Below, piece after piece: positions 3,402 to 8,442 of a stretch of DNA of 34,023 bases (position 1 is the first letter of the stretch; every line of letters starts with the position of its first letter). A model generated the notes under the pieces. It saw nothing but the letters and a program-made list of their open reading frames with translations. It had not been told where the DNA came from and did no database searches. This DNA is from a virus, in IMG/VR virus record IMGVR_UViG_3300047300_000136, positions 1 to 34,023 of that record; one strand, given 5' to 3'. The position numbers and the translations under genes were made by a program.

Positions 3402-4382
3402 ATGACTAGACTCAACACATCATCATGGACACGTGGTGGAACAGCAGTAGAAGCAGGCTCAGCATCAGAGGCTGCACGTCAGGCTGGTCTTGACTGGGAT
3501 GTAGCACCAGTTGCTATCCAGGCATACCGCAATCGCAATGTAAATCCATATGAAGTTGTAACGGATTACTACGAAGTACCACGCAAGCAGGCTATCTTGC
3601 GCCTTGATACCGAGCAAGTTATTGGTGTAGTAGGTGAGAAGTACAAGGTAGTGCAGAACATGGAAGTATTCTCTGCCCTTGATTCACTCGTTGATTCAGG
3701 TGAAGCACGGTATACAGCAGCAGGTGAGTACAATAATGGTGCTAACATCTGGATGATTATGGAACTACCTGCAGGTGTGCAAGTAGCCAATGACCCACAT
3801 GCTGCATACCTACTAGTCCAATCATCACATGATGGCTCAGGTGCAGTACGTATCCGACCTATTATCGAGCGTATCTTCTGCGCTAATCAGATTAACAAAC
3901 TAATTACACGTGGTAAGAAGAATGACTACACTTATACAATGAAGCATACAACTCATGCTAAGTTATCAGTTCAAGATATACGTGCAATTACACAGTTAAC
4001 TTATCAGTCTATTGCTGAGTATGAAGAAGTAGCATCACACTTGCTTAGCCGTGGGGCTAATCATTTGCGTGCTCGTGAAATCTTTCGTAAAGTATGGGCG
4101 CTACCATCAACAGTAGAGTCCAAGCCATATGACATGCTTACACAGGGTGAACGCCGTCAGCAGACACTAGCATATACAGCACGTGATAAAGCATGGGAAA
4201 TCTATCAGAACTCACCAACTCAAGAGAACATTAAAGGTACTGACTTTGGTATCTGGCAAGCAGTTGTTGAGTATGCAGACCATCACGCTTCGGGTGGCTC
4301 CGAACGGCTCGCCGTTGCCACCCTCAGTGGACGCAATGATGCAATCAAGAACAAAGCACTAGAACTAGTGCTTTCTAACTAA
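3402..4382 (+). CDS. TIGR03299/DUF932-type phage-plasmid protein
   Basis: At 326 residues this matches the usual size of the phage/plasmid-like TIGR03299 (DUF932-related) proteins. Family features visible are the early GLDWDVAPV segment (29-37), VVGEKYKVVQNMEVFSALDSLV (about 75-96), the central strand YLLVQSSHDGSGAVRI (about 136-151) and the FCANQINKLI motif near residue 163. Members occur in replication or recombination neighbourhoods of phages and plasmids; an exact activity is not established to my knowledge. The ribosome site is AAAGGAG, eight bases upstream. Near the 3' end a GC-rich hairpin (4292-4323) encodes residues 297-307, and base composition rises sharply there compared with the rest of the gene. 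Confidence 0.8.
   Translation: MTRLNTSSWTRGGTAVEAGSASEAARQAGLDWDVAPVAIQAYRNRNVNPYEVVTDYYEVPRKQAILRLDTEQVIGVVGEKYKVVQNMEVFSALDSLVDSGEARYTAAGEYNNGANIWMIMELPAGVQVANDPHAAYLLVQSSHDGSGAVRIRPIIERIFCANQINKLITRGKKNDYTYTMKHTTHAKLSVQDIRAITQLTYQSIAEYEEVASHLLSRGANHLRAREIFRKVWALPSTVESKPYDMLTQGERRQQTLAYTARDKAWEIYQNSPTQENIKGTDFGIWQAVVEYADHHASGGSERLAVATLSGRNDAIKNKALELVLSN
4292..4323 (+). other. GC-rich two-part hairpin inside TIGR03299-type gene
   Basis: GGGTGGC (4292-4298) pairs with GCCACCC (4317-4323), and AACGG (4303-4307) pairs with CCGTT (4312-4316) around a CTCG loop. Twelve base pairs and a 4-base one-sided bulge lie in 32 bases, an unusually stable element for this AT-rich coding region. Confidence 0.6.
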
Positions 4383-4390
4383 GGAGAAAC

Positions 4391-4804
4391 ATGAATACAA
4401 TCCAGATTACAAATGATGAAGGCCAGACAATCAACTATACTGAAACAGAGATTACTACTATCATTAAGAACGGTGTTGACAATGCCCGTCAAGCAGTCGA
4501 ATACAGCAAAGAAATCAGTAACCTTCGTCGTGAAGTGCGTGACTTTTTCAGTGAAGGTGAATGGTCAGGTGGTGAGCAGACAGTCAATAAAGGAGATGTC
4601 AATTTCCTACTCGAACGTATCGGCGCAAATAAACTTACTACCAAGTACAATGGAACCTTTACAATTACAGGAACATTTAGTGTTGAAGTAGAAGATGAAG
4701 ATGAAATTGAAACAATCATCTCTGAGAATACTGACATCTCTAACTGGTCAGCAGACATGGATATAGATGTAATTGAAGTAGATGACATTGAAGAAGAAGA
4801 CTAA
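4391..4804 (+). CDS. Hypothetical acidic protein (137 aa)
   Basis: ATG 4391 follows AAGGAG after a 5-base gap. The N-terminal half is helical (residues 20-55, a probable short coiled coil with EISNLRREVRDFF). The middle contains a beta-hairpin-like NGTFTITGTFSVEVE, and the last 40 residues are very acidic, ending EVDDIEEED. Acidic tails of this kind occur in phage DNA mimics and in ssDNA-binding or replication partners, but I cannot assign one. It is coupled to the next gene by TAATG. Confidence 0.65.
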   Translation: MNTIQITNDEGQTINYTETEITTIIKNGVDNARQAVEYSKEISNLRREVRDFFSEGEWSGGEQTVNKGDVNFLLERIGANKLTTKYNGTFTITGTFSVEVEDEDEIETIISENTDISNWSADMDIDVIEVDDIEEED

Positions 4805-4920: not shown

Positions 4921-5293
4921 TCAACCATTCGTACCTTACAATGGTACTGCTGGTTGGTCAGGCACAGATACAAGTAAAGAACGTGCTATGATTAACCTGC
5001 GTACTGGCAGGGAATATAACAACCAGCAAAAAGCGTTAGCACTATTAAAACAGTATGGTAGATTTGGCTTAACTTGGAAAGAGTTAAGCGACAAGACAGA
5101 CATGCATCACGGCACGGCAAGTGGCGTGTTGTCAGTACTGCACAAGTCAGGTGCTATACTTAGAGGCAAAGGTCTTAGTCGTAATAGATGTAAGTTATAC
5201 TTTGATATATCTCTTACGGATGAGATTACAAATGAACCATACAAGGAGAAGCAGAAACTGTGTCCACATTGTGGACTAGATACAAATGTATAG
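4913..5293 (+). CDS. Winged-helix DNA-binding protein with C-terminal zinc knuckle
   Basis: I choose ATG 4913 (126 residues) because AAGGAGG at 4903-4909 directly precedes it; a longer reading from 4841 would run in the opposite sense of codon use through the preceding microgene. Residues about 50-105 form a helix-turn-helix followed by a wing: KQYGRFGLTWKELSDKTDMHHGTASGVLSVLHKSG, then a basic RGKGLSRNRCKLYF strand. The C-terminus has CPHCG at residues 117-121. It is probably a small transcription regulator or replication-initiation helper. It is the last gene before an internal promoter and leader, so it may regulate that promoter (inference). Confidence 0.65.
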   Translation: MTSQPFVPYNGTAGWSGTDTSKERAMINLRTGREYNNQQKALALLKQYGRFGLTWKELSDKTDMHHGTASGVLSVLHKSGAILRGKGLSRNRCKLYFDISLTDEITNEPYKEKQKLCPHCGLDTNV

Positions 5294-5308
5294 TCCAGCC
5301 GTTCACTG

Positions 5309-5317
5309 TGCTATACT
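5309..5317 (+). promoter_or_regulatory. Extended -10 promoter
   Basis: TGCTATACT matches an extended -10 element (TGn plus TATAAT with one mismatch). The expected start point, about 5324, coincides with the first base of the long leader hairpin. No good -35 hexamer is visible, which extended -10 promoters can tolerate. Confidence 0.5.
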
Positions 5318-5323
5318 TATAAC

Positions 5324-5373
5324 ACTAGTGGTGGGTGGGTTTTTTCTCTCTCCTTGTCCTGCCCACCGCTAGT
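5324..5373 (+). promoter_or_regulatory. Leader hairpin with anti-ribosome-site loop
   Basis: A 16-bp stem including three G-U pairs (5324-5339 with 5358-5373) encloses an 18-base pyrimidine loop. The loop heptamer TCTCCTT (5349-5355) is the exact complement of AAGGAGA (5380-5386), the ribosome-binding site of the following nuclease gene. In RNA this permits either a free loop or a loop-to-ribosome-site pseudoknot that would block translation. It is therefore a candidate cis-acting translational switch rather than a simple terminator. The downstream T-run is only three bases. Confidence 0.55.
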
Positions 5374-5389
5374 TTAACAAAGGAGAATA

Positions 5390-6163
5390 ATGGCAGAAGT
5401 AGAAGTACCTAGAGATAGGTACGGCAGACCAATGATTGTGCCACCGAAAGGTGGCAAACCAGTGCCGTATACAAGAACAACTACAGTTGCAGGTAGTCTA
5501 GATGATGGCACTGCACTGGTTGCATGGAAATTACGCATGGCAGCAGCAGGATTAACGCTGCGACCAGACCTATTGCTAGCAGCATCAGCCCATCGAGACA
5601 ATAAGTTAGAGATGGATAAGTTGGTCGAAGATGCAATGGAAGCAGCAGGCGCTACACGCCAGGCTACAATTGGTACTGCGATTCATACGCTAACAGAAAA
5701 GTTAGACCGAGGTGAAGACCTTGGTGTAATCCCTGAAGATTATCGTGCAGATATACAAGCATATGCAGATGCAACTAAGCACTTTACTAACGTGCATATC
5801 GAACAGTTCTGCGTACTAGATAAGTTTAAGATTGCAGGTACACCTGACCGCATTGTTGAATACAAAGGCGAGAAGTTTATCTCTGACCTTAAAACAGGTA
5901 GCATCTCTTATCCAAATAAGATTGCTATGCAGTTAGCGGTATACGCCCACGGCTTGCCGTACGACCCTGCTACGGCAACCCGCGGTAGTTGGGGCGACAT
6001 CAACACAGAGAAGGGAATCATTGTTCACTTGCCAGCAGGCAGTGGAGAATGTACTCTTCACTTTGTAGACTTAGTTCATGGTTGGAAAGGTATCCAACTA
6101 GCCATGAAAGTAAGAACCCATCGTGACAAAAAGAAAATATCAACCCCGTTCCAAGGAGAATAA
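5390..6163 (+). CDS. RecB/Cas4-type PD-(D/E)XK exonuclease
   Basis: The 257-residue protein shows the RecB-family nuclease pattern in order: GTAIH with His99, Glu138, GTPDR with Asp153, the SDLKTG core with Asp166 and Lys168, and the Q-x3-Y motif with Gln181 and Tyr185. The Asp/Lys pair coordinates metal for phosphodiester cleavage. Single-domain RecB nucleases in phages act in recombination, end processing or host DNA breakdown. There is no helicase domain and no Cas4-like iron-sulfur cysteine set. It follows the leader hairpin and is coupled by TAATG to the next gene. A GC-rich inverted repeat (5944-5996) sits directly after the Gln-Tyr motif. Start ATG 5390 is set by AAAGGAG. Confidence 0.8.
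   Translation: MAEVEVPRDRYGRPMIVPPKGGKPVPYTRTTTVAGSLDDGTALVAWKLRMAAAGLTLRPDLLLAASAHRDNKLEMDKLVEDAMEAAGATRQATIGTAIHTLTEKLDRGEDLGVIPEDYRADIQAYADATKHFTNVHIEQFCVLDKFKIAGTPDRIVEYKGEKFISDLKTGSISYPNKIAMQLAVYAHGLPYDPATATRGSWGDINTEKGIIVHLPAGSGECTLHFVDLVHGWKGIQLAMKVRTHRDKKKISTPFQGE
5944..5996 (+). other. Nested inverted repeat inside nuclease gene
   Basis: TTGCCGTA (5954-5961) and TACGGCAA (5971-5978) form a perfect 8-bp stem with a 9-base loop, and CGCCC (5944-5948) can pair with GGGCG (5992-5996) outside it. The stretch is far richer in G+C than the rest of the gene and codes for the residues just after Tyr185. Confidence 0.55.
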
Positions 6164-6639
6164 TGTCTCACACAGAAGCACCTATCAGCATCAACCTCAA
6201 GACAAAAGCAGGTACACAGTTAACACTTCGTGCTAACACACCTGATGAATTCACAGCACTAACAACACAAGTCTTTGCAATCGTAGAGGCTATCGATGAA
6301 GTCGAAAAAGCAGTACACAGCACTGGTTTCAGCGCACCTGCAGCAACTCCAGTAGACCCAGCAATTGGCTATCTTGCACAGTCAATGGGTGGCACAGTAG
6401 TTGAGCAGTCATGGAATGCAGCACCTGCTGCACCAGTAGCAGCGCCAGTTGCTAATGGTCAGCGCATGTGTCCACATGGCGCAATGACTCGTATCCATGG
6501 TCTCAGTGGCAAGTTCGGTCCTTACAAGGGACACTTCTGCCCAGCACAAAAGGGTGACCCATCTAAGTGTGCAACTCAGTATGTCAAGGCGACATCACCA
6601 GAGTATGCAACATTTGTAGCAGACCAGACAAAGGCATAA
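6163..6639 (+). CDS. Hypothetical protein with C-terminal Cys/His motif
   Basis: The protein has three parts. Residues 1-50 form a beta-then-helix domain (ISINLKTKAGTQLTLRANTPDEF, then a helix). Residues 55-98 are an Ala/Pro/Val-rich flexible linker. Residues 99-150 hold a conserved-looking block with CPHGAMTR, GPYKGHFCP and a final Cys (SKCATQYV). Three cysteines plus a histidine could bind one zinc. The position between the RecB nuclease and the DnaB/RecA-type ATPase, with overlaps on the nuclease side, suggests a recombination or replication accessory such as a nucleic-acid-binding factor; this is inference. Confidence 0.65.
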   Translation: MSHTEAPISINLKTKAGTQLTLRANTPDEFTALTTQVFAIVEAIDEVEKAVHSTGFSAPAATPVDPAIGYLAQSMGGTVVEQSWNAAPAAPVAAPVANGQRMCPHGAMTRIHGLSGKFGPYKGHFCPAQKGDPSKCATQYVKATSPEYATFVADQTKA

Positions 6640-7455
6640 ATGAAAACTCTACGTCGTAGCGTAGGCAAGGCAGAGGTAGGTGGCGAACCATTGCCACCAC
6701 CTTTCCAAGTCTTTGCCCGTGAAGGAATCATTCTGCGACGCTCAGAGATAACAGTAATCGCTGGCACTCCTGGTGCTGGCAAGTCCAGTATTGCATTGCA
6801 TATTGCTGCAAGATTAAAACAACCTACATTATATTTCTCAGCAGATACCAATGCACATACTATGGCTATGCGATTGCTCGCGCTAAGAGCGCGTATCCCT
6901 CAGCAACAAGCAGAACTAATGTTAAAGACACAACCAGATACAGCCGAGTCTATCTTGCGTGAGTATGGAAATATGTATTGGTCATTCGAACCAAGCCCTA
7001 CTCTTCGTGATTTAGATGAAGAAGTATCTGCATTCGAAACTATTTGGGGCAGGTCTCCTACTCTTATAGTTGTAGATAACCTTATGGACATTGCAATTGA
7101 TGGACATGAAGAGTTTGCTGGCATGCGTCAAGTCATGAAGGAACTTAAGTACCTAGCCCGTGATACAAACGCAGCAGTTCTAGTATTGCACCATACGCAG
7201 GAAGGTGCACCTGGCTATCCGTGCCAGCCGCGCTCAGCACTGCAAGGTAAGGTTGCGCAGATTCCTGCTATGGTGTTAACTGTAGGTCAGATGATGGCAG
7301 GTCAGGATATGTACATGTGTGTGGCTCCAGTTAAAAACCGCTACGGTAAAGCCGATGCAACTGGTAACACATACCATTCGCTATCCTTTGACCCAGCATC
7401 TATGCATCTAGAAGATATTGTCCGTGACTATCGACAGGAGCAAGTACAACTATGA
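6640..7455 (+). CDS. DnaB/RecA-type P-loop ATPase (replicative helicase-like)
   Basis: The 271-residue protein is essentially a single RecA-fold ATPase. Walker A is GTPGAGKSS with Lys48, Walker B is LIVVDNLMD with Asp146, a motif with LVLHHTQEG at 182-189 fits the sensor position, and a KNRYGKA segment near residue 232 matches the arginine-finger loop of DnaB-type helicases. There is no N-terminal primase-interaction domain, so it resembles the short DnaB-like or RadA/Sms-like ATPases used by some phages. It starts at ATG 6640, immediately after the preceding stop, and overlaps the next gene by ATGA. Helicase is more likely than recombinase because the primase lies three genes downstream. Confidence 0.8.
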   Translation: MKTLRRSVGKAEVGGEPLPPPFQVFAREGIILRRSEITVIAGTPGAGKSSIALHIAARLKQPTLYFSADTNAHTMAMRLLALRARIPQQQAELMLKTQPDTAESILREYGNMYWSFEPSPTLRDLDEEVSAFETIWGRSPTLIVVDNLMDIAIDGHEEFAGMRQVMKELKYLARDTNAAVLVLHHTQEGAPGYPCQPRSALQGKVAQIPAMVLTVGQMMAGQDMYMCVAPVKNRYGKADATGNTYHSLSFDPASMHLEDIVRDYRQEQVQL

Positions 7456-7727
7456 GAAAAAAAGAATTAGAAAATAAAGTTATTTTCTTACAACGTGATA
7501 TTGAAAGAGTTCGTGATGGCTTAAGAGAAATGAGTCGTACACGTTTAACACGTGATACAAATACATATGGATTACAAACAACTACGAATACTCGTATCAA
7601 CGAACTTGAATTGACTGTAAAGCAACTTACCAATATCCTTATTAAAGCAGGCATCCTTGATACACTATCAATGCATGATGCAGTAGAAGTAAACGGAACT
7701 AAATACAATCTGAATCGAGTTCATTAA
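7452..7727 (+). CDS. Coiled-coil hypothetical protein (91 aa)
   Basis: It is coupled to the ATPase by an ATGA overlap. Residues 3-28 and 48-68 have heptad-like spacing of Leu/Ile/Val (LENKVIFLQRDIERVRDGLREM; INELELTVKQLTNILIKAGIL), so a helical hairpin or dimeric coiled coil is likely. The C-terminus is short and mixed. No family is recognised. Its fixed position directly after the ATPase suggests a partner or loader, which is inference. Confidence 0.6.
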   Translation: MRKKELENKVIFLQRDIERVRDGLREMSRTRLTRDTNTYGLQTTTNTRINELELTVKQLTNILIKAGILDTLSMHDAVEVNGTKYNLNRVH

Positions 7728-7730
7728 TCT

Positions 7731-8084
7731 ATGAGTAACGCAGCCAAGGCTAAAGGCTCAGGAGCCGAGCGAGATGTAGTAAAGTATCTCAAGGAAGAAG
7801 GCTTTATCTATGCCGATAGACGATTGGCTGGTGCAACTCTAGACAAAGGTGACGTATCAGGTATACCTGGAGTTACAATTGAAATCAAAAATCATGCCAA
7901 GATGGACTTGGCTGGTTGGACAGAAGAATTGTTAGTCGAGATGGCTAATGATAAAGCATGGACAGGCGTGGTGTGGCACAAGAGGCGCGGACGGGGGAAG
8001 CCTGCTGATTGGTACTGCACCATGCCTGGCTATGTTTATGTAGCATTATTAAAGAAGGCAATCAATGGAGAAACCAAGCATTGA
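7731..8084 (+). CDS. Holliday-junction-resolvase-like PD-(D/E)XK nuclease
   Basis: This 117-residue protein has the compact resolvase layout: an N-terminal helix with SGAERDVVKYL carrying Glu13, then DKGDVSGIPG with Asp41, the EIKN core with Glu51 and Lys53, and a basic C-terminal half (KRRGRGK) for DNA contact. These acidic residues and the lysine are the metal-binding and catalytic set of archaeal-type Hjc/VRR-NUC-like resolvases. A phage uses such an enzyme to resolve branched DNA before packaging or during recombination. The primase-type gene starts 20 bases before its end. Confidence 0.75.
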   Translation: MSNAAKAKGSGAERDVVKYLKEEGFIYADRRLAGATLDKGDVSGIPGVTIEIKNHAKMDLAGWTEELLVEMANDKAWTGVVWHKRRGRGKPADWYCTMPGYVYVALLKKAINGETKH

Positions 8085-8442
8085 GGATTACCTGCACTAC
8101 ATAGGTGCAGACGTACCAGCCAGAGGTAGTGGCTGGCGCAAGATGAAGTGCTGCTTTCATCTAGATTCACATGCAAGTGCAGCAGTAAACTTTGATAAGA
8201 ACGCCTTTGTCTGCCACGGTTGTGGTGTCAAAGGCGATACTTATTCCCTCATCATGCACAAGGAAGGATTAGATTTTAGTGAGGCTAAACAATTCGCAGA
8301 GAAGTTTTCTACTTCAGGCAACACAGAAGTACGCAGCCGAGATAGAACAAGCAGCCGATTATCTGTCAAGCCGTCAACTCTCGGTAGAAGAGGCAAACAT
8401 CTTTCACTTGGGGGTGGTCGTAGACCCGCTGCCAGGGCATGA
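8065..8442 (+). CDS. DnaG-type primase, zinc-finger part (frame 1 of split gene)
   Basis: Residues 1-80 match the CHC2 zinc-binding domain of DnaG primases: CCFH with Cys29 and His32, CHGC with Cys50 and Cys53, then KGDTYSLIMHKEGLDFSEAKQFAEKF. After residue about 85 the reading becomes an Arg/Ser-rich tail without family likeness, and the expected continuation is found in the +1 frame. I take the bulk of 8312-8442 in this frame as non-native tail. The start ATG 8065 follows AAGAAGG and overlaps the resolvase by 20 bases. The unshifted product would be a stand-alone zinc domain of 125 residues; the shifted product is a 282-residue primase. Confidence 0.7.
   Translation: MEKPSIEDYLHYIGADVPARGSGWRKMKCCFHLDSHASAAVNFDKNAFVCHGCGVKGDTYSLIMHKEGLDFSEAKQFAEKFSTSGNTEVRSRDRTSSRLSVKPSTLGRRGKHLSLGGGRRPAARA

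Follow-up and report, generated by a model that had tools for sequence, protein, structure and literature searches.

The leader hairpin and the operon behind it

The stretch of DNA analysed here, called the window, comprises 34,023 nucleotides of an uncultured virus record (IMGVR_UViG_3300047300_000136). Within it, a predicted promoter is followed by a hairpin and a set of overlapping or closely abutting replication genes. The features of this locus are:

5286-5317, + strand: inverted repeat GTATAG...CTATAC with a conserved CCGTTC centre, overlapping the -10 element; possible operator or second hairpin
5309-5317, + strand: predicted extended -10 promoter element, TGC-TATACT (from sequence)
about 5324, + strand: predicted transcription start, placed from the extended -10 element; equals the first stem base
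5324-5339, + strand: helix 1, 5' arm, ACUAGUGGUGGGUGGG (sequence, fold, covariation)
5340-5348, + strand: loop 1, UUUUUUCUC; its initial UUU is invariant across 41 aligned leaders
5349-5355, + strand: helix 2, 5' strand, the anti-Shine-Dalgarno sequence UCUCCUU in the loop (sequence, alignment)
5356-5357, + strand: loop 2, GU
5358-5373, + strand: helix 1, 3' arm, CCUGCCCACCGCUAGU (sequence, covariation)
5374-5379, + strand: loop 3, UUAACA, 6 nt; would cross helix 1 in a pseudoknot
5380-5386, + strand: helix 2, 3' strand, the Shine-Dalgarno (SD) sequence AAGGAGA (from sequence); nuclease ATG at 5390
5390-6163, + strand: PD-(D/E)XK / Cas4-family exonuclease, first gene of the operon (PF12705; phrog_466 exonuclease, 7e-65)
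6163-8442, + strand: L5/D29 gp49-like protein, DnaB-like helicase, a protein of unknown function, RusA-like resolvase and DNA primase, in overlapping or closely abutting frames

Direct reading of the sequence bore out the 16-bp stem, the loop motif TCTCCTT and the complementary AAGGAGA described in an earlier note on this DNA. The DNA arms ACTAGTGGTGGGTGGG (5324-5339) and CCTGCCCACCGCTAGT (5358-5373) form 16 pairs, G.U pairs included, and enclose a pyrimidine-rich loop of 18 nt (TTTTTTCTCTCTCCTTGT, 5340-5357), whose UCUCCUU (5349-5355) is perfectly complementary to AAGGAGA (5380-5386). The SD does lie shortly 3' of the stem as the note had it, but at a distance of six unpaired bases (5374-5379) instead of seven. 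The predicted extended -10 element about 7 nt before the stem agrees with its placement of the stem at the transcription start, and the motif TG-N-TANNNT also stands directly 5' of the hairpin in the main clade of relatives and in the L363 sister clade. From the hairpin to the ATG the predicted fold reaches -27.5 kcal/mol (z = -4.7 versus dinucleotide shuffles), and the wider region 5309-5420 gives z = -2.5.

The inverted repeat overlapping the -10 element occurs at the same place in relatives, in others as GCATAG..CTATGC and with CCGTTC or CCGTCA at its centre, and is missing in L028 and L038. Since its arms vary in length around a constant centre, it resembles an RNA hairpin more than a fixed-spacing operator. 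Elsewhere in the window, a second perfect hairpin (AAAGCACTAGAACTAGTGCTTT, 4354-4390) precedes the SD AAGGAGA of an ORF starting at 4391; it has no anti-SD loop and is found at similar positions in several relatives. A strong intrinsic-terminator-like hairpin of 17 pairs with a T-rich tail lies at 1044-1081, and the ORF at 10207-10875 matches a phage sigma-factor family (phrog_354, 4e-18) and could encode a late-gene sigma factor.

The first gene product is approximately 41% identical to annotated Cas4 family exonucleases of actinophages (tblastn), and gene content and protein relatives together point to actinobacterial phages as the probable carriers. The leader is absent from the named phages with this exonuclease (Streptomyces and Mycobacterium phages, Dulem virus 32), in which the genes abut or overlap. 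Bacterial genomes yielded no relative of the nuclease and only five matches to the loop pattern, which is about chance level.

Conservation and covariation of the leader

A perfect 7-mer match between a purine-rich SD and an 18-nt pyrimidine loop would by our estimate arise by luck on the order of 10% of the time, so the window sequence on its own is weak proof and conservation in relatives carries the weight. Relatives were for this reason collected, both by nuclease similarity and by the loop pattern, and the element was found in well over a hundred related uncultured IMG/VR phages. Among 104 unique leaders pooled from the pattern set and the first two sets of nuclease relatives, 102 have the hairpin immediately 5' of the nuclease gene, and the remaining two have it one small gene farther upstream. 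With about 70 nt and a helix 1 of, in most cases, 14-16 bp, the element is compact. The stretches searched contain one copy of it, and the loop pattern is confined to the operon leader apart from one chance hit. The search gave no convincing second copies, the weak matches being antisense readings or the unrelated hairpin at 4352-4393.

In a structure-based alignment of 41 distinct leaders, helix 1 showed two-sided changes at 11 of 14 pairs with 96% of cells paired, and both helices together had 97% of cells paired, counts that overstate independence because the sequences share ancestry. When the partner was slid by 1-3 columns as a control, pairing over the whole structure fell to 47-63%. The changes in helix 1 are RNA-type covariation. 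Chance complementarity, or an element acting at the DNA level such as a terminator or operator, can claim that such a match in one sequence is not uncommon and that a search of a phage DNA collection gave no match; set against 104 unique leaders and RNA-type covariation that includes G.U pairs, it is refuted barring an alignment artefact, and we regard it as extremely improbable. An intrinsic terminator was rejected, as no U-tract follows the stem and a terminator scan made no call.

Helix 2 was paired at 100% in the 41 distinct leaders, the only variation being U-A to U.G or C-G to U.G, although the invariance of the SD is not independent evidence because 16S rRNA constrains it too. Wobble variants comprise the loop UCUCUUU in L060 and L038 and the SD AGGGAGA in seven leaders, and the divergent loops of L045, L207, L219 and L059, from which most of the common loop sequence has disappeared, retain UCUC(C/U)UU. 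Base 7 of the SD is mismatched to the 16S rRNA tail (CACCUCCUUUCU) and pairs with a loop U. All 119 hairpin leaders (119 of 119) have A there, while the equivalent position of the following gene in these genomes is A in 62, T in 45 and G in 4 cases.

Pairing also differs between clades in a coordinated manner. In the L363 sister clade (nuclease identity about 61-66%), a longer helix combines the loop GUCUCCUU with the SD AAGGAGAC, and 29 of 33 unique leaders have a loop G together with C at SD base 8; in the main clade, by contrast, the loop carries C and base 8 is variable. In L493 the helix between loop and SD reaches 9 bp. A third clade pairs CUCUUUC with GAAAGGG (L369) and CCUCUUU with AAGGAGG (L507). 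The candidate pairing of UUUUAGUC with GACUAAGG in L508 is weak (shuffle p 0.047) and sterically doubtful; shuffle p-values of the automatic loop-finder are usable only for rows such as L508 and L494. On the nuclease tree every pairing type falls within one clade. For the compensatory changes proposed in the earlier note as a check, complementarity throughout the main clade and the clade-wise coordinated differences of loop and SD were found, but no true double-compensatory change within the helix 2 core was found among the leaders. Conservation of the element, covariation of helix 1 and the preserved, clade-wise coordinated pairing of loop and SD were thus established by computational comparison of sequences.

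The L517 clade, whose nuclease is 65% identical, lacks the SD-pairing element. In its place stands a different conserved leader (L517 1424-1495 and clade members L509-L546), where pairing of GATGG with CCATC and of GTCCCG with CGGGAC could build another H-type pseudoknot, one with an unpaired SD; it had no match in Rfam. That the upstream gene of the L363 clade ends within the loop was considered and discarded, as the traceable homologues mostly stop about 105-124 nt before the start codon.

These patterns bear on two further explanations. The hairpin might be a mere stabiliser of the mRNA 5' end, its loop sequence being of little matter or binding something unrelated. Its position at the predicted start site in two clades and its persistence at the front of the operon despite gene insertion would suit such a role, which nevertheless leaves unexplained why the anti-SD heptamer is exactly conserved, why SD base 7 is always A and why loop G and base-8 C go together in the L363 clade; we consider it improbable. 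Still less probable is that the loop acts in trans, as an anti-SD for other phage SDs, by binding a host RNA or as the site of a pyrimidine-binding protein, the match in cis being incidental. The loop does mimic an anti-SD, and other genes also have AAGGAGA, but the clade-specific match to the leader's own SD (AAGGAGAC with GUCUCCUU, and the 9 bp of L493) and the constantly short loop 2 favour pairing in cis, and the SD of the next gene varies freely.

Geometry and action of the proposed pseudoknot

The earlier proposal of an H-type pseudoknot between loop and SD, hiding the ribosome site, fits the conserved hairpin and a loop kept complementary to the SD. Topologically the leader corresponds to an H-type pseudoknot, with a loop 2 that always measures 0-2 nt and a loop 1 of mostly 9-10 nt in the main clade. 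By a fibre-model estimate, loop 3 needs 8-9 nt to cross 15-16 bp, and the 6 nt present in the window mean that about two basal pairs of helix 1 must open. Of 103 main-clade leaders, 36 need no opening, most others need one to four basal pairs and L006 about five to seven. Opening two basal pairs in the window would cost about 3.4 kcal/mol versus about -12 for helix 2 stacking, and at this cost the pseudoknot of the window is only marginally favoured. The short loop 3 and this balance of cost and stacking suggest a knot that could form but is finely poised, as one would expect of a switch. U.A-U triples might arise between the invariant UUU that opens loop 1 and the AA-UU end of helix 2.

The predicted energy of the loop:SD pairing (-10.2 kcal/mol) is close to that of the SD with a typical 16S tail (-9.2), which suggests that the loop is able to compete with the ribosome. 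Helix 1, at the 5' end of the transcript, would be the first to form. After transcription of the SD, the loop UCUCCUU would pair with AAGGAGA as helix 2 and close the pseudoknot, which would then compete with the 16S anti-SD and reduce initiation on the first gene, while the genes behind would follow through their overlapping or abutting start and stop codons.

Genomes with insertions indicate what the element may control. In L001/L144 and in L038, two unrelated small genes are inserted between SD and nuclease, and the hairpin and SD stay together as a unit that now serves the inserted gene, which suggests that this unit controls whichever gene comes first. The stop codon of the inserted gene overlaps the nuclease ATG in L038 (TAATG) and ends one base before it in L001, an arrangement in which downstream genes may follow the first by translational coupling. 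The inserted ORFs (L001 1480-1589 and L038 2780-3002) include a cysteine-rich one of 31 aa and one with a signal-peptide-like start. Control tied to the nuclease gene itself, as the earlier note had it, finds no support in these genomes, where a small gene takes over the controlled SD. The upstream winged-helix/zinc protein it had offered as a ligand is an unlikely partner: the L363 and L369 clades carry the element, and in neither was the gene for this protein detected near the leader.

The pseudoknot might also form but act positively, docking the mRNA on the 30S platform and unfolding there, thereby recruiting ribosomes or making initiation depend on them. The RNA anatomy would be that of Escherichia coli rpsO, whose pseudoknot is first docked on 30S and then unfolded by S1, and selection for strong ribosome binders has yielded pseudoknots (PMC3858243); moreover, the SD of the leader is still strong and not degraded. 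However, the rpsO knot pairs with coding sequence and leaves the SD free for 16S rRNA, whereas here the SD lies inside the helix, and we judge a positive role unlikely, if less so than the readings weighed above.

We infer that loop and SD pair in cis as a pseudoknot, that this pairing represses translation and that the downstream genes are coupled to it. The reading that we prefer, with a probability of roughly 70%, is a new structured RNA family in which an H-type pseudoknot would sequester the SD of the first gene and lower its initiation, the genes behind following. The most likely effect of the element is to reduce translation of the replication operon and set its timing. As to the trigger, our guess is either that an operon product binds the RNA and exerts feedback or that the element is an unliganded translation set-point. 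Thermosensing, ribosome sensing and a phage protein as ligand, raised in the earlier note, are candidates as well. That a ligand or protein operates the pseudoknot as a switch gating the whole replication operon, possibly autoregulated by an operon product, is a tentative extension that we hold with rather less than even confidence. If true, such an autoregulated switch would stand beside T4 gene 32 as the second phage case of pseudoknot-based translational autoregulation. Control of translation by structured RNA is well known in coliphage T4 and hardly described in environmental phages, and an element heading the genes for the start of DNA replication offers a testable case of how phages time these genes.

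Relation to known leader pseudoknots

Nearest in logic are the preQ1-I type III riboswitches, T4 gene 32 and rpsO. At the gathering threshold, Rfam gave no match for the window or seven relatives. The best preQ1-class match of the window was preQ1-II with 23.2 bits against a gathering score of 47, and L065 and L363 had no preQ1 matches up to E=1. The preQ1-I type III riboswitch of E. coli has a pyrimidine-rich stem-loop, an H-type pseudoknot and full SD occlusion (PMC11625349), and the likeness to this and the other preQ1 classes lies in the pyrimidine-rich stem-loop, the proposed H-type knot and an SD that would be paired within it. The phage leaders differ in a helix 1 of mostly 14-16 bp and in their replication gene context. 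Membership in a preQ1 family was rejected because scores are below the gathering threshold and the downstream genes encode exonuclease, helicase, resolvase and primase and not queuosine synthesis or transport.

According to a 2010 review, the T4 gene 32 pseudoknot is maybe the only viral pseudoknot that autoregulates translation (PMC3014915). With gene 32 of T4, T2 and RB69 the element shares a phage mRNA leader, a proposed H-type pseudoknot and a replication/recombination gene. The gene 32 knot, however, is located about 67 nt upstream with the SD outside it, and represses through cooperative gp32 binding, whereas here the SD is a strand of helix 2. No gp32-like regulator was identified, the first gene behind the leader encoding a PD-(D/E)XK exonuclease and not a single-strand-binding protein; with the SD inside the knot and an exonuclease in first place, assignment to the T4-type gene 32 class was rejected. 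The E. coli rpsO (S15) operator likewise has a pseudoknot at the ribosome binding site that affects initiation (PMC3858243), but there the long-range helix takes in the beginning of the coding region and repression is by S15 entrapment, while the phage pairing would cover the SD. The covarying stem and the retained SD-complementary loop strand are those of the general class of SD-sequestering H-type leader pseudoknots. Judged by Rfam 15 and the literature searched, the element is best called a new family within this known class, and the set of leaders can serve as the seed for a new Rfam family.
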